The translations under genes were made by a program, and so were the position numbers. From a virus: a stretch of 64,000 nt of DNA. Shown one piece after another: positions 4,294-60,984 of this stretch (its first letter is position 1; each line of letters opens with the position of its first letter). The notes under the pieces were generated by a model that ran no database searches, was not told the DNA's origin, and was given only the letters and a program-made list of their open reading frames with translations. Location of the stretch: the IMG/VR virus record IMGVR_UViG_3300021591_000018, positions 1 through 64,000 of that record; one strand, 5' to 3'.

Positions 4294-7200
4294 CGTGGGA
4301 GATCTACATCGACGGTGAGATCCATTCTGGTTCCATAGTGAAGATAGTCGAGGAGCTCAACAACCACTCAGAAGCGATCATTCGACTCCCACGGTCACCT
4401 GAGAACATTGAACTCGTCCAGAGCGACAGAGACGTAGACATCTACTTCGACGACAAGAAGATCCTCTCTGGTAAACTGATGGCTGCAAAGTTCAAGTATG
4501 ACTACATCGAATGTACGATCTATCCAGAGGCTGAGGACAAGCTTAAGAACAGCATCATAACGGGAACGTACGAAGACGCATCTCCAGAGACAGTCGCACA
4601 AGCGATATGTGATGCTGCAGGACTTACACTCGGATCCGCTCCTTCAACTCCAACTGTGAGTGTACGATTCGACCATGCTGTCTGTTGGGATGCTCTACGC
4701 CACCTCTGTGACGTCATCGATAAGGACTTCTGGTTCGACGGATCGACAGTCTACATAGGAGACAGAGGAACATCAGTCGGAGAAATCGTCCCACAAGGTC
4801 TTTCACGTCGAGCAGTCGATCGAAGTAAGGTTAAGAACAAGGTCATCATCCGAGGAGTGGACAAAGATGGCAATACAATCTACGGTGTAGCTCAGACAGG
4901 TGCTGGAGACAGAGTCATCGTCTTCACAGAGAAGAGAACTATGACTCAAGAAAACTTGAATCAGCTAGCACAGACGAAGCTCAAGGAACTGTCAAAGGAG
5001 GCAACTGGAGTAGCTTTCGATGTTTCACCTGATGTCGGAGTCAGTCTCAATGTCGGTGACACTGTCTACATCAACGCTGAAGAACTCAACCTCGTAGGCA
5101 ACTTCCGTATCTACCGGTTGACGAGAAAGGCAGAGAAGACCATCGTCGAAATTGACCGACCTGAACTTGTACTCGAATCCGTCTTCGAGGACATGCAGAG
5201 ACTCGAAGACCTTGGCATCTACCCGGTAAGTGCTGAGCAGCTTGACAATCCACCTGGACCACCTGCAGCACCAACTGGATTAACTGCTACACCACAGATC
5301 GGAGCCATTCTCCTTAAATGGAATGCTAACACCGAGGCTGACCTCGACCACTATGAAATCTATCGAGACACTTCAAGTCCTGCCTCTACTAAGATCGCTG
5401 AAGTCCACGCTACCTCATACCTTGATGAAGACGTCGAATACGGTGTGACGTACTACTACCGGATCAAGGCAGTCGACAGAGTTGGCAACAAGTCGGACTT
5501 CTCAGCTGAAGTCTCAGCGTCTCCACGTCAAGTCGAGACACCTGACCTTGAGGATCAATCAATTACAACAGATAAAATCGTCCCCGAAGCTGTTACAACC
5601 CCAATTCTTGCTCCCGACGCTGTAACAACCGAAAAGATCCAAGACCAGGCTGTCACTGAGCTTAAGCTTGCGGATCTGGCTGTTTCGACTCTGAAAATCC
5701 AAGACCTAGCTATAACCGAAACGAAAATTGCAGACGACTCGATCTCAACTCCCAAGCTTCAAGCAAATGCAGTGACTGCAGCAAAGATTGCTGCAGGAGC
5801 CGTTACTACTGAGAAACTCGATGCACACGCTGTTACTACGCGAAAACTCTACGTCTATCAGGTTCTCCTCGACAGTCCCGGATTTTCGGCTTCAGGTGGT
5901 GTACTCTCTTGGAATAGTTTTACACTTACCTATCAAGGCGTCGACTATGAGATCTCCTCTGGTAGCACTTCTGACATGTATATCTACTGGAAGGAAGGTG
6001 ATACATTCCTCTCAAGTAGCAATACGAAGCCAGATATCGCATCTGATCCATCCATCCATATGATTGCGGTATTCGACGCTTCAACCAACACTTTCTGGGA
6101 AGTTTGGAAGCCAACGGTAGTTCACGGCGGCATGATCATTACAGAGACAATTAGTACCGAGGAACTGGCTGCAGATGCAGTCACAACAGAGAAGATCCGC
6201 GCCGAAGCAGTCACAACAGCGAAACTGGCAGCTGGAGCCGTAACGTCTGAAAAAATTACTGCCGACTGGATCACAGGTAAGAAATTCCGCACAAGTGGAA
6301 GGGCGACCCCAGCAGCTGGAGTGGAATTTGATGACAACGGTATCCGAGGGTACGGAGATGCGACGACGAAGACATTCGAGATCGAGGCTGCAACTGGTGA
6401 CGTTAAAGTCTACGGTTCACAACACTTCATAGTGGCGGATGAGACTGGAACATCTATCGGTTACCTCGAGCATACAAGATACACGTTTGACTCGACTGAC
6501 TATGACACCGCGAGACTCGTAGCACCTTCACACTCTGCTGCAATTGAGGCATCAGGCTACTACTTACTACTACGACAAGATGGCAATTGGATTATAGGTG
6601 GTGACCCAACCATCCTTCCAGTAAGCGATCTACAAGTGAGGATCGGTGACAATTCGCATCGGCTGAAGGAGATTCATGTTGAAAGCCTTTACGCTGAGAA
6701 CCTCTCTGGGACGATCAATATCCTCAACTCCGATCTCGATGCTAACAGTCACAAGATCTACAACTTGAGTGGGTTAGAGCCAGATGGAACTGGGACACGA
6801 GACATCGGAACTTCTACTCTTCAATGGAAGGACGGTTACTTCGCTGGAACAGTCTACGGTGGATCAGGAGACTTTGGGAGTCTGTTGATTGGTGGGACTG
6901 AGGTGATTACAGGCTCGAGAGTTTTGCAGAATATCGCCTCGATTAACGTAAACCTACTTCCAAGTGATAACGATTTCTTCGATCTCGGCTCGGAGTCTTA
7001 CAAGTGGCACAGGCTGTTCCTTGGCTCTACAGATGTCGGCCTGAATGCGGGTGGAAGCATAGTGATCGGCGATGACACGAGCAATCTGAGGATAGATGAC
7101 AACGAAATACAACAATACGGGAATTCCCTTTATATTAATATCGATTCCCATGTAGACACGATTTTTGGATGTAACGTAAGACCTCATTCTGATAACGCCT

Positions 7201-9905: not shown

Positions 9906-10427
9906 ATGCCGCTTTCGTGGACACAGGACATCAGTTCCGGTGCATCTATTGACTCAGCTGACGTACAGGAAATCCGGGACAACATCGACGCTGTGATCGA
10001 CTGCAGTCCAGAGTGTAGTGCAGATTACATCTCAGTGGAGTCCGGATTCGATATTGGCGTCTACACTACCGAGGACTACAATGCATATACCACAGCATAC
10101 ACGAATGTAAAGTCCGGAGAGGACATCTCGGTGTTGACGGGATATGATGCCGATGTATATGTGGGCGAAAATACCTCCGAAGACAGTGGGAAAAACTCTT
10201 CAGTCGATACAGGTGACTTCGTGTCTGTTAAAACCAATTACGACTCCGGAGAAAATGTTGGTGATGATATCGGCTACGACTCCACCTACAAAGCGGGAGT
10301 GGACGGGGAGGATTACGGTGACTACAACTCATCCTACGATGGAGCCGTCGACTCCAGCGATTATGGGGATCACAACTCACCGTACAATATCACGGTCAAG
10401 TCTTCCCACAATTCAGGGGTGACATGA
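9906..10427 (+). CDS. Octapeptide-repeat acidic protein B
   Basis: 173 residues from the ATG at 9906 (AGGTGT upstream). Paralogue of the preceding gene: same N-terminal MPLSWTQDISSGASID block, then, after CSPEC, exactly seventeen 8-residue units to the C-terminus, such as SGFDIGVY, TTEDYNAY, SGEDISVL, TGYDADVY, STYKAGVD, SSYDGAVD, SPYNITVK. Position 1 is mostly Ser/Thr, 2 Gly/Ser/Thr, 4 Asp/Tyr/Asn, 7 often Val. The strict period suggests a solenoid or fibre. Its stop overlaps the start of the radical SAM gene, so the two are translationally coupled. Confidence 0.68.
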   Translation: MPLSWTQDISSGASIDSADVQEIRDNIDAVIDCSPECSADYISVESGFDIGVYTTEDYNAYTTAYTNVKSGEDISVLTGYDADVYVGENTSEDSGKNSSVDTGDFVSVKTNYDSGENVGDDIGYDSTYKAGVDGEDYGDYNSSYDGAVDSSDYGDHNSPYNITVKSSHNSGVT

Positions 10428-11701
10428 TGGAAGCGGCAGAGCTACTTACAACGGGCTGGTGTCCATTGAACTGTACGTATTGCTACATTCCGAAGAGCCG
10501 GATGATGATCCATCTTCACTCACGCATTCGAGGGTATCTTCAGTCCGGTGAATTCATCGAGGATCTTAAGCGTTTCTACGGTGGCAAGCTCCACTTCCTC
10601 GGGTTCTGGGGTACTGAGCCGCTCTTGACTCTCTCGGACATCAAGCCACATCTACCCGAGATAGTAGAGGCGTTTCCAAACCTCGAAGCAATCAGCTTCA
10701 GCACGTCGTTGCTGTACCGTCCACTGGAGATAGTCGACTTCGCTGCAGCTATGCCGAGGAAAATTCAGCTTCGAGTCCAGATAAGCGTTGACGGTCCAGC
10801 TTGGATTACAGACCGCAACCGACGTGTAGGAGCTGCTGAAGAGATTCCACGGAACTTCGAAACAGTATTGAGGGAACTCAATGCGACGTCGACGTGCCCA
10901 GTCGAGTTCCGGTGGAAGGTGACGCATTCGATCGAGAACATCCGAGGCTTCACGCCGGAAAGGGTGAGAGGGTTCATCGGTTACTTCAAAAGGCTAAACG
11001 CAACTTTCGACAGAGTTAACCGGAGACGAGATGTCACTCTGCGACGTGGGAGCTTCTGTCCAACCATAGTGGTTCCAGGGAAGTACACCGCAAATGATGG
11101 CAGGGCATTTGCCAGATATCTACGTCTCTTTCACGCTGAAAACTTCGACACTAGTTATACTTATCGACTCCGGAGGATCATAGACTTGTTTCCTGACATT
11201 GCGAAGACTCGGATGTTCACATGCAGTGGCGGCGACAGCAATGCCGGGGTCGGATTCGGGAAGTTGCACATCTGCCACAGAACGTTTTACTACGATTGCC
11301 CGGAGTACGTAGAGAGCATTGTGACTCAAGAGCGATACAAGAACTGGGATGTCAGTCACTTTGAGGAAGGAACTGTAGACTGGGTCGCAAGGTGGTTTAT
11401 CACTGATGATGTCCCTCGTTTCCGCTATGTTATGAGAGGTTACCACGACTTCTGGAGATTCAAGATCAGTTATACTGAGACTATGGTTCAGTTGCTTGCG
11501 AAAGTCGGCGAAGCGAATCCGAGGTATCTTTCTGACCCTGGATTTAGGCAACTCTTCGCCATCTTCGAAAACGTTGCGCTGAGTTGCCCGATGGAGAATC
11601 TTCTCAACACTGGGTCTATACACCTCCAGACTTTGAGCCTTATCCGCATGTTTGCGAATGGAGCTTTCGAGGAGTTGGTGGAGCGATGCAAGAGAAGATG
11701 A
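10424..11701 (+). CDS. Radical SAM enzyme (peptide-modifying type suspected)
   Basis: 425 residues; start ATG overlaps the upstream stop and follows GGGGTGA. The N-terminus carries the radical SAM cluster motif CPLNCTYC and then FWGTEPLL, equivalent to the GGEP SAM-binding motif. A C-terminal cysteine group (FTCSGG, HICHR, YYDCP) could bind an auxiliary cluster. Such enzymes with auxiliary cysteines usually modify ribosomally made peptides. The gene sits directly after two repeat proteins, which makes these the natural candidate substrates; that link is inference. Not a NrdG activase by length and layout. Confidence 0.8.
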   Translation: MMEAAELLTTGWCPLNCTYCYIPKSRMMIHLHSRIRGYLQSGEFIEDLKRFYGGKLHFLGFWGTEPLLTLSDIKPHLPEIVEAFPNLEAISFSTSLLYRPLEIVDFAAAMPRKIQLRVQISVDGPAWITDRNRRVGAAEEIPRNFETVLRELNATSTCPVEFRWKVTHSIENIRGFTPERVRGFIGYFKRLNATFDRVNRRRDVTLRRGSFCPTIVVPGKYTANDGRAFARYLRLFHAENFDTSYTYRLRRIIDLFPDIAKTRMFTCSGGDSNAGVGFGKLHICHRTFYYDCPEYVESIVTQERYKNWDVSHFEEGTVDWVARWFITDDVPRFRYVMRGYHDFWRFKISYTETMVQLLAKVGEANPRYLSDPGFRQLFAIFENVALSCPMENLLNTGSIHLQTLSLIRMFANGAFEELVERCKRR

Positions 11702-12912
11702 TCGAGTACATCCTCGAGAGGACATTCTACAAGACCTGGAGAAACGGCGAAGGGTTATTCAGTAAGCTCGAGCTCTTCGTGAATCCGTATTGTAACCTCC
11801 GATGTAAGTACTGTTATCTGCAACGTTACAGTGAAGGGCTGTACCCACCAGAAGCGAGGAAACCACCGAGAGAGATACTGTCCAATGGACTGAGAGTCCT
11901 TCGATGGTTGAAAGCGAATGACTTCCGCCCTGAGATCGAGATTTTCAGTGGAGAGCCCTTGATTCAGCCAGCCTGCATCGAACTGATGGTTCGAGCTTCT
12001 GAAGTTGCGAAACAGGTAGTTGTGCCAACGAACTACACCTTCCTGCTCTCCGAGAGGCTTACGCGTTTGGTGGAGTCTACACTTCGCCCGAACATCGTGC
12101 TCTCCGCAAGCTTCGACGGTAAGTACTGCGAGCACGCAAGGCCATTCAAACACGGACCCGAACTCCGGGACGATGTCTACTACGACAAATGTTTCCAGTT
12201 CAACGCAAAACATCGCTTTGGTTTTCACCCGATGGTCGCTCCGCAGAACATCGAAAACTGGACTGAGAACTTCCTCTGGTTCCAGGAGAACTTTAAGAAA
12301 TTCGGAATCCCATGGACGAATTTGTACTTGCTCGAAGTCCGAAACCCTGAATGGACAAAGTCTCAGCTTCGCCACCTCGATGAGTTCCTCCGGTTTCTTG
12401 TACGTTGGAGTTGGAAGAAGTGTCAGTCCAGTAACAGGCTGTTCCGTGAGTTCCTTTTCAAAGGACGCGGCTTCAATATTCTCAGTAGTCCCTTCGTTAC
12501 CATTGGACGTGGGATTGGGTGCTCAATTCAATCCACGCTGACAATTCGCCTAGGTGATCTTGCAATAGTCCCATGTCATCGAACTGCATATAAGCCTTTC
12601 ATCCTTGGGTACTTCAGAGATGGGATCGAAATCACAAATCCGGAGCTCTTCGTCGCAGTGTACAGTTTCGATCGCAGATCGCTACCTTATTGCGAGCAAT
12701 GTGATATTCGTGAACTCTGTAGTGGAGGATGTCTAGGAGCACAGCTGGAAAGCCTCGGAGATATGTTCACTCCACATCCGAATGTCTGTTTACTTGAGCA
12801 TATCAAGATTAATGCAATTCTTTCAGAACTTAATGAGATAGGAGTTCTCTCGTACCTAACTAAGTTTATTCGAACCGAGAAGCAAAAAGCGATCGAGGGG
12901 TGGATAAAGTGA
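11686..12912 (+). CDS. Radical SAM/SPASM-type enzyme
   Basis: 408 residues from the ATG at 11686, chosen for the GGTGG site upstream; it overlaps the previous gene by 16 bases. Cluster motif CNLRCKYC near residue 30, then IFSGEPL. The C-terminus has CEQCDIRELCSGGCLG and a later Cys, the SPASM auxiliary-cluster signature of anaerobic sulfatase/peptide maturases. Weakly similar in plan to the preceding radical SAM gene. Together they may act on the octapeptide-repeat proteins, perhaps as core plus partner enzyme. Substrate unproven. Confidence 0.82.
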   Translation: MQEKMIEYILERTFYKTWRNGEGLFSKLELFVNPYCNLRCKYCYLQRYSEGLYPPEARKPPREILSNGLRVLRWLKANDFRPEIEIFSGEPLIQPACIELMVRASEVAKQVVVPTNYTFLLSERLTRLVESTLRPNIVLSASFDGKYCEHARPFKHGPELRDDVYYDKCFQFNAKHRFGFHPMVAPQNIENWTENFLWFQENFKKFGIPWTNLYLLEVRNPEWTKSQLRHLDEFLRFLVRWSWKKCQSSNRLFREFLFKGRGFNILSSPFVTIGRGIGCSIQSTLTIRLGDLAIVPCHRTAYKPFILGYFRDGIEITNPELFVAVYSFDRRSLPYCEQCDIRELCSGGCLGAQLESLGDMFTPHPNVCLLEHIKINAILSELNEIGVLSYLTKFIRTEKQKAIEGWIK

Positions 12913-25021: not shown

Positions 25022-25738
25022 CTACTCACCGTGACATAGTGAAACTAAACTCTCTATAAGTCTCCTTGCAAGATGGTACTGTAGTGGTGTCAGCTCCTCT
25101 TCGAATCGTATTCTGCTCAACCTCAGTACGTTATAGTCCATCGGATAGAGCTCTTGGTGGAGATTCTTCGCCAACGTTAGGGGTAGTGACGAGTCAACCG
25201 ACGTTACTTTCTCGTACAGTACAACCTCGTACGGATTGTCAAGTCCCAGTAGGTGGAGTTTCTTGTCACTTAAGTCGAAGTGCTTCAGACAGTACTTCAC
25301 GACTTCTGGACGACAATGGAACCGTTTGTTCAACCAGATCGGAAAGCCGATGTAGCTGTAGCCTTCAAGTGGGAGCAACTGTCTTAGACAGAGTATGAAC
25401 TCAGCAGGATTCGCACCTTGTGGTACTACCATTATTTCTGCTGGCACATCGTAGTCAAGGAACTCCGTTATGCGTTTGATGGTTTCCGTTCGTCTGTTCA
25501 GTACATCTGGTGCTATCACGACATCGACACCTATCTTCGACGTCAGTTCGATGAGCTCTTCGTTACTGATAGTTTTCGACTCGTACGCTCCGTTGTCGAG
25601 CATCTTGAAGACGTTGAGTGCCGAGATGAACTCGACAGTACGTTCGTCTTTCAGTTGCTCTGGAACGAGGAAGAGTCCATCGACCAACTCCAAGAAGTAT
25701 GGTAACGAGCTAGTAGGTGCTATCAGCAAGTACTTCAC
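25022..25738 (-). CDS. DpdA/TGT-like 7-deazaguanine DNA transglycosylase (candidate)
   Basis: 238 residues. Follows the tRNA-guanine transglycosylase TIM-barrel pattern: MLDNGAYES (~47-54), VVIAPDVL with Asp78, VVPQGANP (~104-111), YIGFPIWL, LHLLGLDNP (~161-169) and VTSVDSSLP with Asp182, the two aspartates that serve as acid/base and nucleophile. Too short for tRNA TGT and lacking a zinc site, as in phage DpdA. With queC, queD, queE and folE in the same arm it would exchange G for preQ0 in viral DNA, giving restriction resistance. Confidence 0.7.
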   Translation of the reverse strand: MKYLLIAPTSSLPYFLELVDGLFLVPEQLKDERTVEFISALNVFKMLDNGAYESKTISNEELIELTSKIGVDVVIAPDVLNRRTETIKRITEFLDYDVPAEIMVVPQGANPAEFILCLRQLLPLEGYSYIGFPIWLNKRFHCRPEVVKYCLKHFDLSDKKLHLLGLDNPYEVVLYEKVTSVDSSLPLTLAKNLHQELYPMDYNVLRLSRIRFEEELTPLQYHLARRLIESLVSLCHGE

Positions 25739-28724: not shown

Positions 28725-28976
28725 TCAGGCATAGATTCCCGATGGTGCCTCAGACTCGTCGTAGCCATAGCCTTGTTGTGTTAGTCGCTTGGCGATCTCG
28801 AGACATCCAATCCGTGATGGCAGACTGAGTGTCTCGAGGAGATTTAGGATTGCAGTTAGTACGGCTACAGAGCGATTCTCCTCTCGCTCAATAGGCCGTA
28901 TGAGTTTGACGAGCTGTTCGACTTGCCTGTTGATGACCTCGGCTATCTGTTCTCCATTAAGTTCTTCTCGATCCAA
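28725..28976 (-). CDS. Hypothetical helical protein
   Basis: 83 residues from a TTG with GGAGGTCG upstream. Helical (EQIAEVINRQVEQLVKLI, AVLTAILNLLETLSL). Overlaps the end of the TBP-like gene, so the two are probably co-translated and might interact. No family recognised. Confidence 0.5.
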   Translation of the reverse strand: MDREELNGEQIAEVINRQVEQLVKLIRPIEREENRSVAVLTAILNLLETLSLPSRIGCLEIAKRLTQQGYGYDESEAPSGIYA

Positions 28977-29464
28977 CGTCCGACCTCCTCAAGTTGCTCG
29001 AGGCTTTTTGCACGATAGCAACATATCTTACCGGTGCTGAAAATGTTCAATGTCACACCGAGCTCTGGCAAACGCAAAGTTGCAGCTGGAAACGTCTCCG
29101 GTTCGTAGACGACGTTGTCGAATTTCTGCCAGAGGTCCTCGAGAATGACTGTTCGGTGAAGGTCGAAGTAAGCTACGACTTGAGCGATACGCACGTCGAC
29201 AACCTCAACGTTGTTGTAATATCTTTTAATGAGCTCCATAAGTTCATCGACGTATTTTTGATAGTTTGCAGACTTAATTCCGTTAAGTGTCACTTTTCCT
29301 GACTCTGCTAAGATAGCACGTACACCTGATGGTAACTTGAAGAAGACAGCAGTGAATCTCCACGGATCATACTTTGCCTTCGGTATGACTTGTGCAACTT
29401 CGTCGAGGTCGAATCTCCTGTTCAACTGCACTACGACTACACAGTTCTTGATGGTGTAGTCCAT
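28943..29464 (-). CDS. TATA-binding protein (TBP) homologue
   Basis: 173 residues built as two TBP half-repeats. Repeat 1: YTIKNCVVVVQL, YDPWRFTAVFFKL, LAESGKVTLNGIKS. Repeat 2: VRIAQVVAYFDL, VVYEPETFPAATLRL, LNIFSTGKICCYRAKS. These match the conserved DNA-contact strands and phenylalanines of archaeal TBP. It would bind TATA boxes and recruit TFB/RNA polymerase. The virus also shows strongly conserved TTTAAATATTG promoters, so the viral TBP may direct the host machinery to these. Divergent from cellular TBP at many positions. Confidence 0.85.
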   Translation of the reverse strand: MDYTIKNCVVVVQLNRRFDLDEVAQVIPKAKYDPWRFTAVFFKLPSGVRAILAESGKVTLNGIKSANYQKYVDELMELIKRYYNNVEVVDVRIAQVVAYFDLHRTVILEDLWQKFDNVVYEPETFPAATLRLPELGVTLNIFSTGKICCYRAKSLEQLEEVGRWIEKNLMENR

Positions 29465-33676: not shown

Positions 33677-33967
33677 CTACACCTCCAAAGTGTAAGATCG
33701 CGGATCACCTGCCTTACAGAGAGCACCGATCCAGATTAATCCAAGAGTTCCGCGCATATCAGGATTGTAATATTGAGGTTCATCATAATCCGAATAGAAC
33801 TTATACCACTCACGGAGATAACGAAGTTCTGAGAGAAAGATTAGAGTTGCTTTGACGTAAACCTTTAACATTTCCAAGGCTCGTTTTACGAAGGGTTGAC
33901 TCAAGAACCTACGATATCGTTCAGTAGGAACAAAGACAAGTCTCTCAGTCATGTCTGAAGAGCTCAT
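33677..33967 (-). CDS. Hypothetical protein
   Basis: 96 residues, ATG after GAGGTATCGAA. Helical with many Tyr/Arg (ERYRRFLSQPFVKRALEMLK), ending in a Gly/Leu-rich segment. Overlaps the RNase H gene. No family recognised. Confidence 0.5.
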   Translation of the reverse strand: MSSSDMTERLVFVPTERYRRFLSQPFVKRALEMLKVYVKATLIFLSELRYLREWYKFYSDYDEPQYYNPDMRGTLGLIWIGALCKAGDPRSYTLEV

Positions 33968-34541
33968 TTCGATACCTCAAGATTACTCTGGACAGCAAAT
34001 ACTCGGCAATTACACGGAACGCACACTTTCCAATTGCTGGTACGTATAGTCCACACCGTTCGTTACATGGTTCTAAGGTTTCAGTAGCGGCAGATAGGAA
34101 CGGACAGATCATCTCGACTTCCTCTGTCTTCTCTTCTTTCCCGTACTCTCTGTAGCCAGGTGGTACCTTTCCATCTAGGATGAGTCCAGCGACATTCTGC
34201 TCTCTCGGAACCCACTGGAAGCTTGCCATCTGTACCGACTTCAGAAGTTCTTTAGCTACATCATGGTAAAGGTAAAGTGGAGCCTTATGTACACTGTAAT
34301 GTCCAGTCATCTGTTCGATAACGAGCTGTGAGTCCCCGACGAATTCAACATTCCTTTGTTTGTTACGGAAGATTGCGTAGATGAGTGCCAAGTACTCTGC
34401 TTGGTTGTGAGTCCTCGGTATCGGTAGCCCTAGCATATCTGAAACTTCTCTGAAGGACTTTATGATGTATTGCTTTGTTGTCTCATTGGCTATACAAATC
34501 TGTTCGGTCTTCATGCTCGCATCGAAGTAGACCCTTTGCAT
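33945..34541 (-). CDS. RNase HI-family protein with C-terminal cysteine extension
   Basis: 198 residues (ATG at 34541; a GTG one codon earlier). RNase H order: YFDASMKTEQICI (Asp), NQAEYLALIYAI (Glu), VEFVGDSQLVIEQMTG (Asp), WVPREQNVAG where the usual fourth Asp is Asn. Then ~70 residues with CPFL, CNERCGLY and GKCAF, a possible metal cluster. Would remove RNA from RNA-DNA hybrids such as primers or R-loops. The Asp-to-Asn change matches that seen in some RNase HI-like families. Confidence 0.75.
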   Translation of the reverse strand: MQRVYFDASMKTEQICIANETTKQYIIKSFREVSDMLGLPIPRTHNQAEYLALIYAIFRNKQRNVEFVGDSQLVIEQMTGHYSVHKAPLYLYHDVAKELLKSVQMASFQWVPREQNVAGLILDGKVPPGYREYGKEEKTEEVEMICPFLSAATETLEPCNERCGLYVPAIGKCAFRVIAEYLLSRVILRYRNELFRHD

Positions 34542-34845
34542 CACACCACCACCCTACAACCAACCCATCCTCTACGTCGACACATGTAATTGCAAATTTC
34601 GGAAGATAGTCGACATCTGGTGGAATTAACTCGAGTCGAATATGGAGGAGTTCTTTCAAGTTGAACATTCTCGGTAACTGGAAGACAGCCGGTTCTTCTA
34701 CTGTAAAACTGAATGTAAACGGTTGATCACCAATCCACAATCGCATACCGAGAGGTCGTTCGACGTGTCTACGAAACAACTTCTTAAGTCGGACTTTCCA
34801 GTTTCGTGGTGTGAAGCCATCTAACAGTACGAACACTTGGTACAT
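34483..34845 (-). CDS. Hypothetical protein
   Basis: 120 residues, overlapping RNase H by 59 bases. Beta-rich (MRLWIGDQPFTFSFTVEEP, LHIRLELIPPDV) with a basic N-terminal helix. No family recognised. Confidence 0.5.
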   Translation of the reverse strand: MYQVFVLLDGFTPRNWKVRLKKLFRRHVERPLGMRLWIGDQPFTFSFTVEEPAVFQLPRMFNLKELLHIRLELIPPDVDYLPKFAITCVDVEDGLVVGWWCDAKGLLRCEHEDRTDLYSQ

Positions 34846-52941: not shown

Positions 52942-53288
52942 ATTCCTAACCTCCTCTTCCACTCCTCGACCATCTCTTGGAGTGTATGACCACAAACTCG
53001 ACAACGTTTAGTGTTCCAATCGTAACTCCATTCACAGAATGGACAGCCTTTCTTATAGGCATAGAACCTGAGAATGAAATCATCGTCGAGAAAGACACGG
53101 AGAATCTCCTCAGGATCCGTACGATAAGAGAACGTCAGAATGAAGGTTTGATCTCCATCACATACTGTTAAATATACGAAGATGTCTTTAGGTTGCCACT
53201 CCAGTTTAACTGTTAGCTTACCGAGTCGACGTGTTGGGCTGACGTTTAAGATGTTCGTTAAATGGATGAGCTTCTGAATGTCCGTCAC
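52938..53288 (-). CDS. Small zinc-ribbon protein (family C)
   Basis: 116 residues from a GTG overlapping the Spt5 stop, with GGAGG upstream. RRLGKLTVKLEWQ, EEILRVFLDDDFILRFYAY, CPFCEWSYD...RCRVCGHTLQEMVE. Near-identical plan to the 52564 gene. Adjacent to Spt5-like, so an effect on transcription is conceivable. Confidence 0.6.
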   Translation of the reverse strand: MTDIQKLIHLTNILNVSPTRRLGKLTVKLEWQPKDIFVYLTVCDGDQTFILTFSYRTDPEEILRVFLDDDFILRFYAYKKGCPFCEWSYDWNTKRCRVCGHTLQEMVEEWKRRLGI

Positions 53289-53734
53289 TCGTTTACCTCC
53301 TTTATCTTCCTAACCTGCGACTTATGCATCTTTACGGGTAGTAGGGATTTAGCCTCATCGAACTGGACGATGATGTTGTTTCCTTCAACAGCAATTACTG
53401 TGCCTCTCATACCTCGCATAAGTCCTGTGACGACCTCCACTCTGTCGTTGACGTTGTAAGTCACTTCAGGTGGTCTTACGAGTCGTTCAACTTCTTCGAC
53501 TGTGACCATTCCTGGGAGAATCCCTCGAATCCATCGACACCCATCCTTGTATGTTTCGGAGACTAACTGTCGAACGTACTCGTAGTACTGTGTCTCGATG
53601 TAAATGTAACCAGGCGTTCTGTCAGAGAATATCATCGAGGTTATTGGGATGTTTGTCCGTTCAGCTACATCTGCTAACCAGTGTGCTGTTGCCTCTTCCT
53701 GATCCCTTAACACACGGATTACGAAGAAAGGCAA
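53285..53734 (-). CDS. Spt5/NusG-type transcription elongation factor
   Basis: 149 residues from a TTG five bases after GGAGGTG. N-terminal NGN domain (FFVIRVLRDQEEATAHWLAD, GYIYIETQYYEYVRQLV, GCRWIRGILPGMVTVEEVE) and C-terminal KOW (YNVNDRVEVVTGLMRGMRGT, VQFDEAKSLLPVKMHKSQV). Length equals archaeal Spt5. It would bind RNA polymerase clamp and aid processivity, perhaps favouring viral operons. First gene of the long leftward block, behind linker element copy 4. Confidence 0.87.
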   Translation of the reverse strand: MPFFVIRVLRDQEEATAHWLADVAERTNIPITSMIFSDRTPGYIYIETQYYEYVRQLVSETYKDGCRWIRGILPGMVTVEEVERLVRPPEVTYNVNDRVEVVTGLMRGMRGTVIAVEGNNIIVQFDEAKSLLPVKMHKSQVRKIKEVNE

Positions 53735-55173: not shown

Positions 55174-55822
55174 TATTCTCACCATTTTCCTCTCTTACTA
55201 AAACTTCTTTAATCGACTTTATGTGTCCCTCGTAGTAGAGTTTCTTCAGTAGCTTGACAGTTCCGTACGTTGTCAGTACTGTCGTTCCATCTTCGAGGTA
55301 CAGTCGTACTCTATACTTGATGTTTGGCCAGTTCCACCACTCTCCCTCGATGATCGGTTCGATGGCAGTCACTCCGAGTGATCTGAGTATCATTGCGTTG
55401 ATCGGCAATCCTGTCTTCGTTCTGTACCGTATCCAATGTGTGACCTTCTGCTTGAATCGTCTGACGTCCTTTCTGTAGCCTTCTTTGAGTTTCCGTTCCC
55501 TCCATCGTCTGAAGACGCTGTCCTGGTACTCACCCCATCGTTCACGTAGAATCTTACGTCGTTCCTCTGCCTTTCGTAGTGCTTCCTTGTGTCGTTCGAT
55601 ACGTCGCTTCATGATCTCCTCGACAGTCAATAATTCGAGTTTCTGTGCCTCTCTGTAGCTTGTCAGTACATAGCCTTTGATGTTGATTCCCTCGATTGTA
55701 TGACTTAGTGGCTTTGCCTGTTGGATGTCGTGTCCTGTCAACTGTATGCCGAATGTCGAGTGCTGGATACGTCGATAGCGTTTCTCTGTCTTTGGTTCTT
55801 CGAAGTCTATCTCTTCACTCAT
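55166..55822 (-). CDS. Basic hypothetical protein
   Basis: 218 residues. Long highly basic helix (RRIERHKEALRKAEERRKIL, WRERKLKEGYRKDVRRFKQK) and a C-terminal strand-rich part (YRVRLYLEDGTTVLTTYG). Likely nucleic-acid binding. ATG after GGGTGGAAAGTG. Confidence 0.5.
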   Translation of the reverse strand: MSEEIDFEEPKTEKRYRRIQHSTFGIQLTGHDIQQAKPLSHTIEGINIKGYVLTSYREAQKLELLTVEEIMKRRIERHKEALRKAEERRKILRERWGEYQDSVFRRWRERKLKEGYRKDVRRFKQKVTHWIRYRTKTGLPINAMILRSLGVTAIEPIIEGEWWNWPNIKYRVRLYLEDGTTVLTTYGTVKLLKKLYYEGHIKSIKEVLVREENGENNE

Positions 55823-55977
55823 CACTTTCCACCCTTCTTTAACTCTTTGACGATCTTCTCACAGACAGTACGTGCACATCGAATGTCCTCAGCTACCTGT
55901 TGTGCATAGTTCGTAAGAAACGCTAGTAAGAACTCCGTCTCCTCAGACGTTAACTTGATGGTAATTTCATCTTTCAT
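55822..55977 (-). CDS. Small hypothetical protein
   Basis: 51 residues. Strand then helix (EITIKLTSEETEFLLAFLTN). Starts after the conserved leader GGGTGGATAGTGAG that recurs before several genes to 57.8 kb. Function unknown. Confidence 0.5.
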   Translation of the reverse strand: MKDEITIKLTSEETEFLLAFLTNYAQQVAEDIRCARTVCEKIVKELKKGGK

Positions 55978-56003
55978 CTCACTATCCACCCTTAACTAAA
56001 AAT

Positions 56004-56261
56004 TTAAGGTGAGTTTGGCTGTGGTATTGGTCTCAGTCTACCGTTCATCAACGCATACGCGTACCTCGTTATGACTTTGATTCCAGTGACAGGGCACTCC
56101 ATGTACCAGATGTCGACGCCATCCTTCGTCTCAACTTTGACCTTCCATGCTAGATCGTTTGGTTGACATTTCCGACATCGCAGACATCGTATCCTCATGG
56201 CTGCCATGGTCCTATTCGTTACGACTGTCTGATTATTCGGACTTAAGTCGTTCCAATTCAT
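56004..56261 (-). CDS. Small zinc-binding protein (family D, normal composition)
   Basis: 85 residues from the ATG at 56261, five bases after GGTGA (an upstream ATG after GAAGATG also exists). CLRCRKC, WKVKVETKDGVDIWYMEC and NGRLRPI align with the products at 56729 and 57580, which lie in the G-free tract. This copy uses all four bases and contains Pro, Thr, Ala and Gln, making it a natural reference for the altered copies. Confidence 0.6.
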   Translation of the reverse strand: MNWNDLSPNNQTVVTNRTMAAMRIRCLRCRKCQPNDLAWKVKVETKDGVDIWYMECPVTGIKVITRYAYALMNGRLRPIPQPNSP

Positions 56262-56290
56262 CTTAATCACCATCATCTTCACTTAAAAAT

Positions 56291-56686
56291 TTAGGAGGTA
56301 ACGTATCCAAACTGTTCCACTGAGTTACTGTAAACAACGTATACATTAACCCATGTTAGCTTGTGATAATCGAATGCATCTGCAACCTTCTTTACTGCAT
56401 ATATTTCAGCTCTACTCTCTACAGCCATCTTTCGGCAATAGCCTGGTAGGTCGTCAACGCACTCGGTTTCAATTCTTTGAAAGGTAGCTACCGCAAATCC
56501 TGCGTCTTCAAGCACCTTTCGTTGAGCTTCGAAACACTGATAATGTCTGTCGAGCTCTTTTACTCTCGCTTCAAGGTCTTTCTTCGTTATTACAACTCTC
56601 AGATAGTGCGGGTTGATGCATCTCCAGATTAAGGACTTAATTTTGTCCAAAGCACGAATTAGTTCGTAATTGATTTCAAACTTCAT
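56291..56686 (-). CDS. Hypothetical helical protein
   Basis: 131 residues from the ATG at 56686, five bases after GGTGA; an ATG four codons earlier is also possible. Helical (ARVKELDRHYQCFEAQRKVL), C-terminal strands. Only its first few codons lie in the G-free tract, so the boundary falls at its translation start. Confidence 0.5.
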   Translation of the reverse strand: MKFEINYELIRALDKIKSLIWRCINPHYLRVVITKKDLEARVKELDRHYQCFEAQRKVLEDAGFAVATFQRIETECVDDLPGYCRKMAVESRAEIYAVKKVADAFDYHKLTWVNVYVVYSNSVEQFGYVTS

Positions 56687-56728
56687 CTTAATCACCATTA
56701 TCCACCCTTACTCAAAATAAAAAACAAA

Positions 56729-56998
56729 TCAAATCCAACCTCTTCCTCTATTCCTCATCAAACCTCTCAATCTTCCACTAATCAAATTATACACTCTCAC
56801 CTTCCTATCTTCACACTCCATACACCACACATCCACTCCTTCTACCACCTCTACTTTCATTCTCCATTTCAACACATTACTTCCCTTACATCTCCCACAA
56901 CTCAAACATATCCCTCTACATACTCTCAAAACATCTCTTCCTACAACTAAATCAAACCCATCCTCACTCTTCCTAACCTCATTACCAAACCAACTCAT
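56729..56998 (-). CDS. Family D zinc-binding protein, C-free gene
   Basis: 89 residues, ATG four bases after GGTGA. CRGICLSCGRC, KWRMKVEVVEGVDVWCMEC and SGRLRGL align with the normal-composition relative at 56004-56261, keeping the Cys, Trp and Gly framework while Pro, Ala, Thr and Gln positions are replaced. No C anywhere in the coding strand, yet no premature stop, so the frame has been maintained by selection. Confidence 0.72.
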   Translation of the reverse strand: MSWFGNEVRKSEDGFDLVVGRDVLRVCRGICLSCGRCKGSNVLKWRMKVEVVEGVDVWCMECEDRKVRVYNLISGRLRGLMRNRGRGWI

Positions 56999-57035
56999 AT
57001 AATCACCATTATCCTCCCTTCACTAAAAAATTTTT

Positions 57036-57302
57036 TCAAAACATACCTAACTCACACATTCTATAAAACCACTCCCAACTCCTAAACCAACTCCAACACC
57101 CATTTCTCAACCTTACTTTCAAAATCCTACCACTATACAAATCTACAATAACCTTCTCACAATATCCTTTCCAACCTACCACTCTTAATCCATCACATAC
57201 CTTCTTCCCAAACCTATTAAACTCACACTTCCTACAAATCTCCTCTAATCTCTCCAAACCTAATCTACTTTCAACCCTAACCTTCATCATCCAACTCTCC
57301 AT
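57036..57302 (-). CDS. Cysteine-rich protein, C-free gene
   Basis: 88 residues from the ATG at 57302 (GAGGTG upstream). ICRKCEFNRFGKKVC and WKGYCEKVIVDLYSGRIL suggest a diverged family D member with a metal site. Trp-rich C-terminus (CWSWFRSWEWFYRMC). Contains no Pro, Ala, Thr, His or Gln. Confidence 0.62.
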   Translation of the reverse strand: MESWMMKVRVESRLGLERLEEICRKCEFNRFGKKVCDGLRVVGWKGYCEKVIVDLYSGRILKVRLRNGCWSWFRSWEWFYRMCELGMF

Positions 57303-57304
57303 CT

Positions 57305-57535
57305 TTAACACCTCACTCTTAACCCTTTAACCCAATTTATCAACTCACCTACCTCCTCACTATTCAAACCTTCAATCTCAACCATATTTCTACTCCAATC
57401 ATAACTAAACCCACACCTATACTTCCTCTCACCTTCCTCTACCCACAAACCAACCTCCTCTAACATTTCCCTCCTCAAATCCCAAATTCTCACAATATAC
57501 AATCCATTCAACCTCATAACATTAACAACTACCAC
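57305..57535 (-). CDS. Hypothetical protein, C-free gene
   Basis: 76 residues from a GTG placed five to six bases after GGTGATTAAAG; an ATG lies six codons further in. Strands and a helix (LYIVRIWDLRREMLEEVGLW, SEEVGELINWVKGL). No relation to family D seen. Uses the same 15-residue alphabet. Confidence 0.6.
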   Translation of the reverse strand: MVVVNVMRLNGLYIVRIWDLRREMLEEVGLWVEEGERKYRCGFSYDWSRNMVEIEGLNSEEVGELINWVKGLRVRC

Positions 57536-57579
57536 CTTTAATCACCACTATTCACCCTTTCTTAAAAAAACAAACAAAC

Positions 57580-57771
57580 CTAAATAACCCTTACACCCCT
57601 ATACTCACACTCAATACCCCACAACTCACCACCTTTCTTACCTTTCCTAACCACCACCTTCCACATCCCACCTTTACAATCTTCATACCTACTACAATTC
57701 TTACAAATACCCCTTAAACAACCCAAAAAATTCTTTTCAACTCTTATAACCTTAACAAACCTATCATACAT
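57580..57771 (-). CDS. Family D zinc-binding protein, C-free gene (short)
   Basis: 63 residues, ATG five bases after GGTGA. GICKNCSRYEDC, MWKVVVRKGKKGGELWGIEC and YRGVRVI match family D, truncated before the GRL segment. First gene of the leftward C-free unit. Confidence 0.65.
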   Translation of the reverse strand: MYDRFVKVIRVEKNFLGCLRGICKNCSRYEDCKGGMWKVVVRKGKKGGELWGIECEYRGVRVI

Positions 57772-57835
57772 CTATATCACCATTCTCTTCCCTTTACAAA
57801 AATCACCTTTACAATATCTATCAATTCTTTCTTTC

Positions 57836-57985
57836 GGTCTCTTCCCCACGTGTCCCCGTGAAATTGGTTAGACGAACTGAAAACGGAAACTCAAACCGCA
57901 CGTACGACCTAAGAACCCGACAGTTAGCGGACATTGACAGTCGGTCAACACACATAAATATCAGTAAACAGTCAATATCTACAGC
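57836..57985. promoter_or_regulatory. Divergent promoter region
   Basis: 150 bases between the C-free leftward unit and the rightward packaging genes, holding no gene. CATAAATATC near 57952-57961 is a TATA-like box ~30 bases before the TerS TTG, implying a leaderless mRNA. CCCACGTGTCC and GACAGTTAGCGGACATTGACAG (given as GACAGTTAG and ATTGACAGT) are possible protein sites. The leftward promoter is not obvious. Confidence 0.5.
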
Positions 57986-58447
57986 TTGGACTGTAAAGTC
58001 TGTCAGTTGCCGGATGCCCCGGAGATCGTAAGACGTATCAAAGCCAACGAAATCTCAATAGCCGAAGGAGCGAAGCTACTCGGTGTTAGTTACCGAGAAC
58101 TCTGGTTGCACCTTAAGAATTGTGTGGTCGACAAGCCACGCGAAACTTCAGTTGATACACTCCAACTACTCGAGGAATTGCTGCGCATCCTACGACAGAA
58201 GCTGCTTGAGCTCGACAGAATGGAAGTCTCAACAGCCAACATTTCCGCTCTTGCTAAAGTCGCCGACAGTCTACGGAAGACTTGCATGGACATCGAGCGT
58301 CTAACAGGTAAATTAAGAGCGGCACCGCTTATACAGCTGCAGAAGATCACCATCCACTACGAGAACCTTCTACAGATCATCTCAACGGAACTTTGTCCTG
58401 AATGTCGGCGTAAAGTCCTGAAGAAGCTCGAGGCGATGACAGTATGA
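57986..58447 (+). CDS. Terminase small subunit (TerS) candidate
   Basis: 153 residues from a TTG without ribosome site but at leaderless distance from a TATA box. N-terminal CKVCQLP and a helix-turn-helix (NEISIAEGAKLLGVSYRELW), helical middle, C-terminal CPECRRKVLKKL. Position directly before TerL with ATGA overlap, size, HTH and helical oligomerisation region fit TerS, which recognises the packaging site. The G-free tract lies just upstream. Confidence 0.65.
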   Translation: MDCKVCQLPDAPEIVRRIKANEISIAEGAKLLGVSYRELWLHLKNCVVDKPRETSVDTLQLLEELLRILRQKLLELDRMEVSTANISALAKVADSLRKTCMDIERLTGKLRAAPLIQLQKITIHYENLLQIISTELCPECRRKVLKKLEAMTV

Positions 58448-60984
58448 TCGATCCGAGAGAGAAAACCATCAAGATACTAAAAGCATTAGAAGACCCTGTC
58501 TACTTCTGTGAAGACGAGTACTTTCTCGGTGCGAAGCTCTACCCGAAGCAAGCTGAGGTGCTACGGAAGTTCTATAACGGTGGATACAATGAACTTGTAC
58601 TCATCGCCGGGATGAGATGTCTTTCACCAGAAACCATCATCTACACAAACCCGTATCCAAAGCCGCTGAAGGAGTTGAACGAGGACGACCTTGTTCTTAC
58701 GTTCCGTAACGGTAAATTCGAGTGGTGCAGATGCCAACTCATACGTCAACGCGCACGTATGGTCTACCGTCTTGTAACGTACTCAGGACGTGAAATCTAC
58801 GCAACTGAGAATCACCCGATTCTAACGTCGAGAGGCTGGATGACGGTTTCATCAATGCTCGAATCGACCTCGTTACCTTACGTTGCAATGTGCCACAAAG
58901 TTCCTCCACCACTTCACCCAATACACGATCCAGATTATGCGACTGCTGTTGCCCTATTCCTCTCAGAGGGTTGCTGGATAACTTCGACTCCACTCTTCTC
59001 GAATCGTGACCCTGAGCTGATCGACACTTTGCGAACTGTACTAAAACGTCGATTTAATGGAGAGTTACGTGGAGGACCGAAGGACTTTCGCATCATAAGT
59101 AAACAATTCCGTGAGGAGCTACATGAACTAAAAGGCAAGAAGTCCGCTGAGAAGTTCATCCCAAAGAGAGTCTTCGAACTTGACGATGAAAGTCTTAAGA
59201 AATTCATCTACTACTTCTGGAGAGGTGACGGTGGAATCGAAGGTGGTAAAGTTCACTTCTACAGCACAAGCAAGCGCTTACTGCAACAGCTACAATTTCT
59301 CCTCCTCCGATTCGGGATACGTAGCTACTTACGTAGACGTCCACAGTACAAATACTACAAACGTGCGCACCCAGAAATGAAGAGTACGAATGAGAGTTAC
59401 GATCTCGTCGTACATGACGACATTTCAACGATCATTCCTGAGGCACCAAGGTGTCAACATAATGGCACATCACCAATGGATAAAATCGGACTCAAGTTAA
59501 GAGACCTTCGAGAAATTTGTGAAACCTCACTCTGGAAGCTACGTCAGCTTATGTGTACGAACACAAAGAACACCATAAGCTTAAAGAATGCACGTAAGAT
59601 TGCTCATCTCATACCAATGTTCGGATGGGAAGACGTTTACTTCGAACCAATCGTTAGGATCGAGCCTATCGGAGTTCGTGAGACGTACGACTTATCTGTA
59701 CCTCATGAAGGTCATGCATTCGTCGCGAATGGTATCATCGTTCATAACAGTGGCAAGACATTTCTCGCTTCTTGTTTCGCAGCTTACGAGGCGTTCAAGC
59801 TCTTGATTAAGCCTGACCCAGCTGCCTACTACAACCTGGCTCCAGGTAGTCCGATCTTCATTGTCGTAGTTGCGACTTCTGAGAAGCAGGCTTACGATAC
59901 GATATTCAACGAAATTAAACAAAAGTTAATGAGAAGTCCGTTCTTCCGTGAGTATCATCCACGATTCCTCATGAACGAAATCATCTTCCAGTCAAAGAAT
60001 GTACGCATACTCTGTGGTACGTCTTCATCTGCCTCATTAGTAGGTCGAAACGTTAAGTTAGCGATTTTTGACGAGCTGGCTCGATTCGAAGAGTCAACCA
60101 GTAAGAGAGGAGCTTGGGAAGTTTACACGTCATTGAAACGTTCAACTGCAACCTTTGGAAAGGAGGGCTACTGCATTTCGATTTCCTCGATCCGTCATCC
60201 AAATGACATTATGATGACTCTCTATCGTCAAGCTCAGACTAACCCAAGGATGTTCGCACTTAAGTTTGCCACGTGGGAGTTCAACCCAAACTTCAAACTC
60301 GAGGACTTTAAGTTCGAACTTCAACGAGACCCACTTGCATTCTGGAGAGACTTCGGTTCGAAGCCGTTTGCTGGTCAAGCACCCTTCTTCGCTAACATTG
60401 ACGTCGTACCCTTCGATAGCAGTATACCAAACAACCTTGAGCTGCTCGCACGTGGAGAGAAGACCTACTTCAATGAGGAGGCAACCTATGTCTTGGCTGG
60501 TGACCCTGCTATTCGCCATGATGCATTCGGACTCGCTATCGTCCATGAAGTTGAACCTGGTCAGTACGTTTGCGACGGACTTTACCGTTTCAAACCAATG
60601 GGGACCGACCTTTCTCCAGTCGAGATAAAGAACTTCATCCTTCGCGTACTTGACCACTGTAACGTCATAACTGCAGTTTTCGACACCTGGAACTTCCCAG
60701 AACTACAGGAGGAAATTCGCTCACATGGTGTCGAAGTGCTCAACCACATCGTCCGTAAGGAAGATTACGATCGCTTCAAAGAATTCTGTTTCAAACGGTG
60801 CATCCGAATATGTGACTATCCAATTCTTCGTCAGGAACTCGAACAACTTCAAATTGTCAATGTCAAGAGGGTTGATCACCCACCTGGTGGAAGCAAAGAC
60901 GTTGCCGATGCATTAGTCAATGCTCTATGGGCGATTTCCGAATTTCAACCTGAGCTACCGTTGAACGTGGCGGTGATCGTATGA
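58444..60984 (+). CDS. Terminase large subunit (TerL) with intein
   Basis: 846 residues including a 377-residue intein; the mature protein would be 469. Joined exteins give Walker A LIAGMRSGKT; Walker B is LAIFDELARFEES. Nuclease aspartates in LAGDPAIRHDAFGLAI, AVFDTWNF and SKDVADALVNALWA. Drives DNA translocation into the prohead and cuts it. Start and stop overlap TerS and portal as ATGA, a typical packaging cassette. Confidence 0.93.
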   Translation: MIDPREKTIKILKALEDPVYFCEDEYFLGAKLYPKQAEVLRKFYNGGYNELVLIAGMRCLSPETIIYTNPYPKPLKELNEDDLVLTFRNGKFEWCRCQLIRQRARMVYRLVTYSGREIYATENHPILTSRGWMTVSSMLESTSLPYVAMCHKVPPPLHPIHDPDYATAVALFLSEGCWITSTPLFSNRDPELIDTLRTVLKRRFNGELRGGPKDFRIISKQFREELHELKGKKSAEKFIPKRVFELDDESLKKFIYYFWRGDGGIEGGKVHFYSTSKRLLQQLQFLLLRFGIRSYLRRRPQYKYYKRAHPEMKSTNESYDLVVHDDISTIIPEAPRCQHNGTSPMDKIGLKLRDLREICETSLWKLRQLMCTNTKNTISLKNARKIAHLIPMFGWEDVYFEPIVRIEPIGVRETYDLSVPHEGHAFVANGIIVHNSGKTFLASCFAAYEAFKLLIKPDPAAYYNLAPGSPIFIVVVATSEKQAYDTIFNEIKQKLMRSPFFREYHPRFLMNEIIFQSKNVRILCGTSSSASLVGRNVKLAIFDELARFEESTSKRGAWEVYTSLKRSTATFGKEGYCISISSIRHPNDIMMTLYRQAQTNPRMFALKFATWEFNPNFKLEDFKFELQRDPLAFWRDFGSKPFAGQAPFFANIDVVPFDSSIPNNLELLARGEKTYFNEEATYVLAGDPAIRHDAFGLAIVHEVEPGQYVCDGLYRFKPMGTDLSPVEIKNFILRVLDHCNVITAVFDTWNFPELQEEIRSHGVEVLNHIVRKEDYDRFKEFCFKRCIRICDYPILRQELEQLQIVNVKRVDHPPGGSKDVADALVNALWAISEFQPELPLNVAVIV
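58618..59748 (+). mobile_element. Intein with LAGLIDADG-type homing endonuclease in TerL
   Basis: Encodes residues 59-435 of TerL. Starts with Cys (CLSPETIIYTN), block B TENHPILTSRGW, endonuclease motifs VALFLSEGCW and YYFWRGDGGI, and ends block F/G ETYDLSVPHEGHAFVANGI then VHN followed by Ser. Sits exactly in the P-loop, between R and SGKT, so uncut TerL cannot bind ATP normally. Endonuclease motifs are degenerate but acidic residues remain. Confidence 0.93.

Follow-up and report, generated by a model that had tools for sequence, protein, structure and literature searches.

A cytosine-free DNA tract beside the terminase genes of a putative archaeal tailed virus, with comparable tracts in unrelated phages

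How can more than a kilobase of viral DNA, genes included, be without one of the four bases on one of its strands, and what keeps it in this state? This question is raised by a locus in the window analyzed here, a stretch of 64,000 nucleotides that makes up most of a 76,753-b IMG/VR record (IMGVR_UViG_3300021591_000018, here G000). A first reading of this DNA had claimed a G-free stretch with sharp boundaries on the plus strand, and both claims hold: an exact count gives no G among 1163 b, the minus strand thus being C-free (Table 1), and both of its ends are abrupt when resolved to 50 b. It had also proposed a scan of the genome for further one-base-free tracts; the second-longest G-free run of the entire record has 50 b, and in 20 trials with order-5 Markov genomes the longest one-base-free run had 43 b. 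At the composition of the flanks the chance of 1163 b without G is about 10^-113. The minus strand of the tract is composed of A (.297), G (.369) and T (.334) with no C, a base that makes up 17-20% of the adjoining genes. A tandem repeat or microsatellite was rejected, as the sequence is non-repetitive and contains open reading frames (ORFs). Rfam gave no match across window positions 55500-59000.

Table 1. Features of the window discussed in the text (positions are those of the window).
Feature	Position	Strand	Remarks
TATA-binding protein (TBP)	28946..29464	-	
RNase HI-like protein	33945..34544	-	
Spt5-like elongation factor	53285..53734	-	NGN + KOW
Gene 4 paralogue outside tract	56004..56282	-	92 aa; normal composition
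Ordinary fifth gene	56291..56698	-	first 26 nt inside tract
C-free tract	56673..57835	-	1163 b; minus strand without C, plus strand without G
C-free gene 4	56729..56998	-	89 aa; Cys-rich; homologue is the C-free G001 gene L005:7721-8029
A6T6	57025..57036	-	3' end of gene 3; like elements recur between C-free genes of G001
C-free gene 3	57036..57311	-	91 aa; no Pfam or PHROG family
C-free gene 2	57305..57535	-	76 aa; no Pfam or PHROG family
C-free gene 1	57580..57771	-	63 aa; Cys-containing; weak similarity to gene 4; no Pfam family
Boundary element CGGGGACACGTGGGGAAGAGACC	57836..57858	-	abuts tract start on minus strand; similar element at same edge in L005 and L004
Small terminase subunit	57986..58447	+	from position and family alignment; weak PHROG match
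Large terminase subunit	58444..60984	+	apparently interrupted by an intein-like insert

The four ORFs of the tract are all coded on the C-free strand, in agreement with the coding claim of the first reading, and several of their starts are preceded by GGTGA-type Shine-Dalgarno motifs recognizable in the sequence. Their products use 15 amino acids; Ala, Pro, Thr, Gln and His, together 17.8% of residues in flanking genes, are absent. For the Cys-rich protein the structure prediction was partial (pLDDT 61). At flank codon usage 118 C-containing codons would be expected in the window tract and none is seen (log10 P about -82), and for a second tract about 139 synonymous codons with C are expected, again with none seen. 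A preference for certain amino acids falls far short of such a deficit. Since such synonymous codons are missing and the spacers between the genes also contain no C, the constraint acts on the nucleic acid and not on the protein.

The record encodes tailed-virus genes, PolB, TBP, an RNase HI-like protein, Spt5 and NrdD, and the preQ0 pathway FolE-QueD-QueE-QueC. Because TBP and Spt5 are virus-encoded, in this genome as in its relative G001, the host is probably archaeal. The best cellular match of NrdD (65%) is a Bathyarchaeia genome, and the other matches include the bins B26-1/2, which we take to be of Guaymas origin; the host is thus inferred from TBP/Spt5 and these NrdD matches. A collection scan by TerL for cellular or proviral relatives found none, and 257 Bathyarchaeia genomes gave one TerL match, a weak one. 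The contig ends of G266 were uninformative on genome ends. As an unusual cargo for an archaeal virus, positions 10424-12912 of the window hold two radical-SAM genes, the second of SPASM type and nearest to peptide maturases.

Whether the tract outlasts sequence divergence can be judged from related viruses. The complete genome G001 (76,879 b with a 135-b terminal repeat, TerL 73% identical) has at the same place (locus L005) a tract of 1778 b whose coding strand contains just one C. Its tract genes are largely other than those of G000 and comprise a YAcAr/SLOG-like protein (phrog_289, E 2.5e-13; PF10686, E 1.3e-5, below the cut-off; poor structure prediction, pLDDT 41), the homologue of the Cys-rich gene 4 and small ORFs. 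Both genomes also possess, outside the tract, a gene 4 paralogue of normal composition. In a further relative, L004, the first 907 b are C-free and an extra C-free ORF is carried. A comparison of L004 with L005 gives 29 differences at 730 tract sites, none of them involving C, whereas outside the tract C is involved in 96 of 233 differences. Directly before the tract start of G000, L005 and L004 lies a similar GAGACC-containing element, the pairing with G000 having been made by eye. In the more distant G008 (TerL 41%) the locus holds a 355-b C-free unit, a single GNAT gene flanked by terminator-like sites, in which the missing C is replaced largely by G; its neighbouring genes have about 4-10% C. 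No tract was found in L006, L013 and L015, of which L013 may not span the place, and L007 does not cover the locus. The persistence of the C-free state, for which the sequence-only reading had suggested a metagenome search, was therefore confirmed in L005 and L004 while gene content changed; relatives of normal composition, which that reading would have taken as a refutation, occur among the distant viruses and not among the closest two with sequence at the locus. In the relatives G007 (L015, 10201-11100) and G006 (L014, 601-1500) the terL and portal genes contain blocks, several hundred bases long, between which the sign of the GC skew changes.

The window virus and its relatives are not alone in having such a tract, as it occurs in other phages too. 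In pattern scans of IMG/VR, T6-GGTGA-ATG followed by 150 non-C bases matched G001 and G008 only, and the pattern with AGGAG as ribosome site matched 11 contigs. As only tracts containing these motifs are detected in this way, the true number is probably larger. Tailed phages unrelated to the window virus were thus seen to carry C-free tracts, which are 0.3-2.5 kb long. One phage type (L145/L147) has 2533 C-free bases, essentially non-coding, upstream of terS-terL; L149 has 759 and 266 b directly upstream of TerL; a further type (L146/L154) has about 1.06 kb with two Cs and TerL 3.4 kb downstream; in L155 a C-free segment of 315 b spans two small ORFs, and in L151 one of 271 b covers most of a DUF4326 gene. 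Outside the clade, terL lies within about 3.5 kb in three of the four lineages whose tracts are not repeats and reach at least 315 b, and the clade itself shows the same proximity, which is suggestive across a small, post hoc sample. L150 was dropped as a microsatellite, L148, L152 and L153 (204 b, AT-rich) were left out of the lineage comparison, and the L008/L009 matches of an earlier GGTGA scan come from unrelated phages with short stretches rich in AT. A search of IMG/VR for the opposite case, a gene free of G, had no match, and the TerL-related isolates CRP-7 and MW202510 have no tract in the stretches examined.

Some neighbouring observations deserve mention in their own right. The largely C-free DUF4326 gene of L151 (730-1539) adjoins a SLOG-family gene, and G001 carries a C-free SLOG-like gene. 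In L155, non-coding GCGCAAATGGCACC-like repeats (about 5700-6000) lie next to the two small C-free ORFs. Short intergenic C-free stretches of 233-407 b occur in Bathyarchaeia chromosomes (L159-L162, e.g. L160:1310-1716; four of 257 genomes), one genome (G091) having several; in the two that were measured T reaches.46 and.53, as if C had been converted to T, and they may represent another phenomenon.

What the rule follows is seen best outside the archaeal clade. L149 contains an ORF of 215 aa on the G-free strand, an open frame of a length reached in 1 of 2000 shuffles; G occurs in it only twice, both times in ATGG, and its Shine-Dalgarno sequence and start make up the short gap with C that separates the two C-free runs. 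The orientation of this ORF together with the non-coding tract of L147 indicates that the rule follows the DNA strand and neither reading direction nor protein. L149 also indicates that the exclusion of C gives way to the needs of expression. No such concession is required in G000 and G001, since Shine-Dalgarno motifs, ATG and stop codons contain no C. As regards structure, the tract RNA has a fold energy of -0.05 kcal/mol/nt versus -0.22 and -0.24 in the flanks, and that of the G-free strand is about 0. Both strands, once separated, are nearly unable to fold.

Our tentative preference, held with less than even confidence, is that the tract is a hairpin-free segment kept by selection and opened as R-loop or single strand near the terminase genes or an origin. 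In such a natural three-letter DNA segment C would be excluded continuously from one strand, probably by selection. The segment would be opened when replication or packaging starts, beside the terminase genes, and once open it must not fold on itself. With one base lacking, G-C hairpins are impossible in the C-free strand, in its G-free partner and in the RNA copy. Small genes could be tolerated there because the expression signals named above do without C, and their proteins would have adapted to the 15-amino-acid alphabet. R-loop, origin and packaging-proximal roles gain from location and gene content. As a proxy for a start of replication, the GC-skew minimum of G008 (52761) falls in the divergent terS region, and those of G000 and G001 (62-68 kb) lie near the terS region but are weak; the skew is confounded with gene direction. 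RNase HI, TBP and Spt5 are found in G000 and G001 only and not in G005-G008, a co-occurrence with the long tract that is weak because it concerns just two related genomes. Several observations count against the opening of such a segment. The nearest-neighbour R-loop energy of the tract, as calculated here, ranks 36 and 66 of 608 windows and is not extreme. To avoid hairpins, C would not have to be missing altogether. The edges follow genes or terminators in G008, L154 and L155. The C-free strand is antisense to the terminase in the window virus and sense in L147, L149 and L154, and outside the clade terminase proximity is seen in these three phages, not in L151 or L155.

Ranked close behind, though on its own rather unlikely, is a purge by mutation, in which one strand is single-stranded for long periods (a virion gap or a displaced strand) and C is deaminated far faster than regained, purifying selection retaining it where it is indispensable; selection might also come from stalling of the B-family polymerase of archaea at uracil. 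Near-zero C would be natural if loss were at least 100 times faster than gain, according to our estimate. Cs do survive where genes need them, namely in the Shine-Dalgarno sequence and start of L149 and in the terminator hairpin and a few codons of L154, and the habitat was probably hot, as is to be expected of Guaymas samples. The composition speaks a different language. In our equilibrium model exclusion of C with symmetric transversions leads to T of about 1/3 and C-to-T conversion to about 1/2, figures that codon and protein constraints could bend. T is near 1/3 in G000 (.334), G001 (.322), G008 (.310), L154 (.298) and L155 (.308), and G rises too; L147 (.374) and L149 (.403) show a partial rise of T. 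A higher T and a slight A-to-G tendency in some codon families speak for the purge. In the G001 spacers the base fractions are those of proportional exclusion, and C-to-T conversion is rejected; the large-scale substitution of C by G in G008 points the same way, and the edges in G008 and L155 follow genes. In the archaeal clade the lost C does not reappear as T to the extent expected, so that exclusion of C fits better than conversion, and simple C-to-T hypermutation, already dismissed by the sequence-only reading, is rejected. A diversity-generating retroelement was considered as well and set aside, the variable base being other than A.

We regard as unlikely that the RNA itself is selected to be C-free in order to be made or to survive under CTP scarcity, the chain terminator ddhCTP or cutting at C. 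Tracts do resemble transcription units: in G000 and L005 they start about 65 nt ahead of the first ATG, in G008 the tract is one unit between terminator-like sites, in L155 it starts at a ribosome site, in L154 it stops at a terminator hairpin, and the lone C of G001 sits, by eye, before a TATA-like box. Moreover, ddhCTP is made by viperins of archaea and bacteria (PMC10732462). The role of C-free RNA considered in the first reading is nevertheless weakened by L149 with its gene on the G-free strand and by the essentially non-coding L147 tract: the coding strand is not always the C-free one. In addition, the tracts of G000 and G001 end within genes, C is abundant in other viral genes, and viperin exceeds the curated cut-off in only two of 257 genomes (G109, G240) of the likely host class, the Bathyarchaeia. 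FttA-type termination was dropped, as the consulted passages of the structure paper mention no requirement for C.

A similarly small share of our belief goes to causes that none has thought of. Clearly improbable is an avoidance of modification or defence, whereby the G-free strand would be free of deazaguanine, or the C-free strand unattackable, in the DNA that enters first. The preQ0 genes of G000, QueC, QueD and FolE2 in G008 and the logical loss of all palindromes containing G+C from such a tract agree with it; no DNA-inserting transglycosylase was confirmed, however (window positions 25022-25738 had no family match above the cut-off), dodging sites would not require the loss of every C, and the remaining genome is ordinary. 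An assembly or base-calling artefact, a suspicion that so extreme a composition naturally raises, can practically be dismissed, because separate samples have yielded IMG/VR contigs with homologous, diverged tracts that contain ORFs and show mutual substitutions.

Kept by relatives and paralleled in unrelated phages, the tract appears to be a genome element of a kind not described before. In the searchable, mostly open-access literature, coding tracts that naturally lack C or G were not found (subscription papers were mostly outside this scope), in line with the first reading, which knew of no such viral region. With somewhat less than an even chance in our judgement, one-base-free DNA could be a recurrent element of tailed viruses, up to kilobases in length and often next to the terminase, from one strand of which C is excluded whatever is encoded, genes being exchanged into it and recoded to 15 amino acids, and which serves a shared step of replication or packaging. 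If so, genomes would maintain three-letter stretches under a rule that overrides the choice of codons and amino acids, and nature would have provided proteins, among them members of SLOG-like and GNAT families, that are recoded to do without Ala, Pro, Thr, Gln and His. A yet unrecognized process with almost no tolerance would then read, attack or require single bases on one of the strands, and the tracts, marking its site and strand, would offer a handle for finding it.

Among known systems, pac/cos regions resemble the tract in adjoining the small terminase gene, adjacency alone being seen for the tract, and we know of no pac/cos site with base exclusion over kilobases. Strand asymmetry of mitochondrial DNA and GC skew at origins are partial and spread genome-wide. 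They share with the tract one C-poor and G-rich strand and a sign change near the presumed origin, but the tract has no C at all, its edges are sharp and T takes only a part of the lost C. R-loop regions, such as class-switch regions and the origins of phage T4 and ColE1, have a G-rich RNA-like strand, with RNase H and transcription factors at hand; all of them retain C, whereas the tract has none, its hybrid stability is not extreme and its R-loop is putative. C-less and G-less transcription cassettes have transcripts that lack one base. These are short, synthetic, non-coding laboratory templates, in contrast with the tract, which is natural, coding and heritable.
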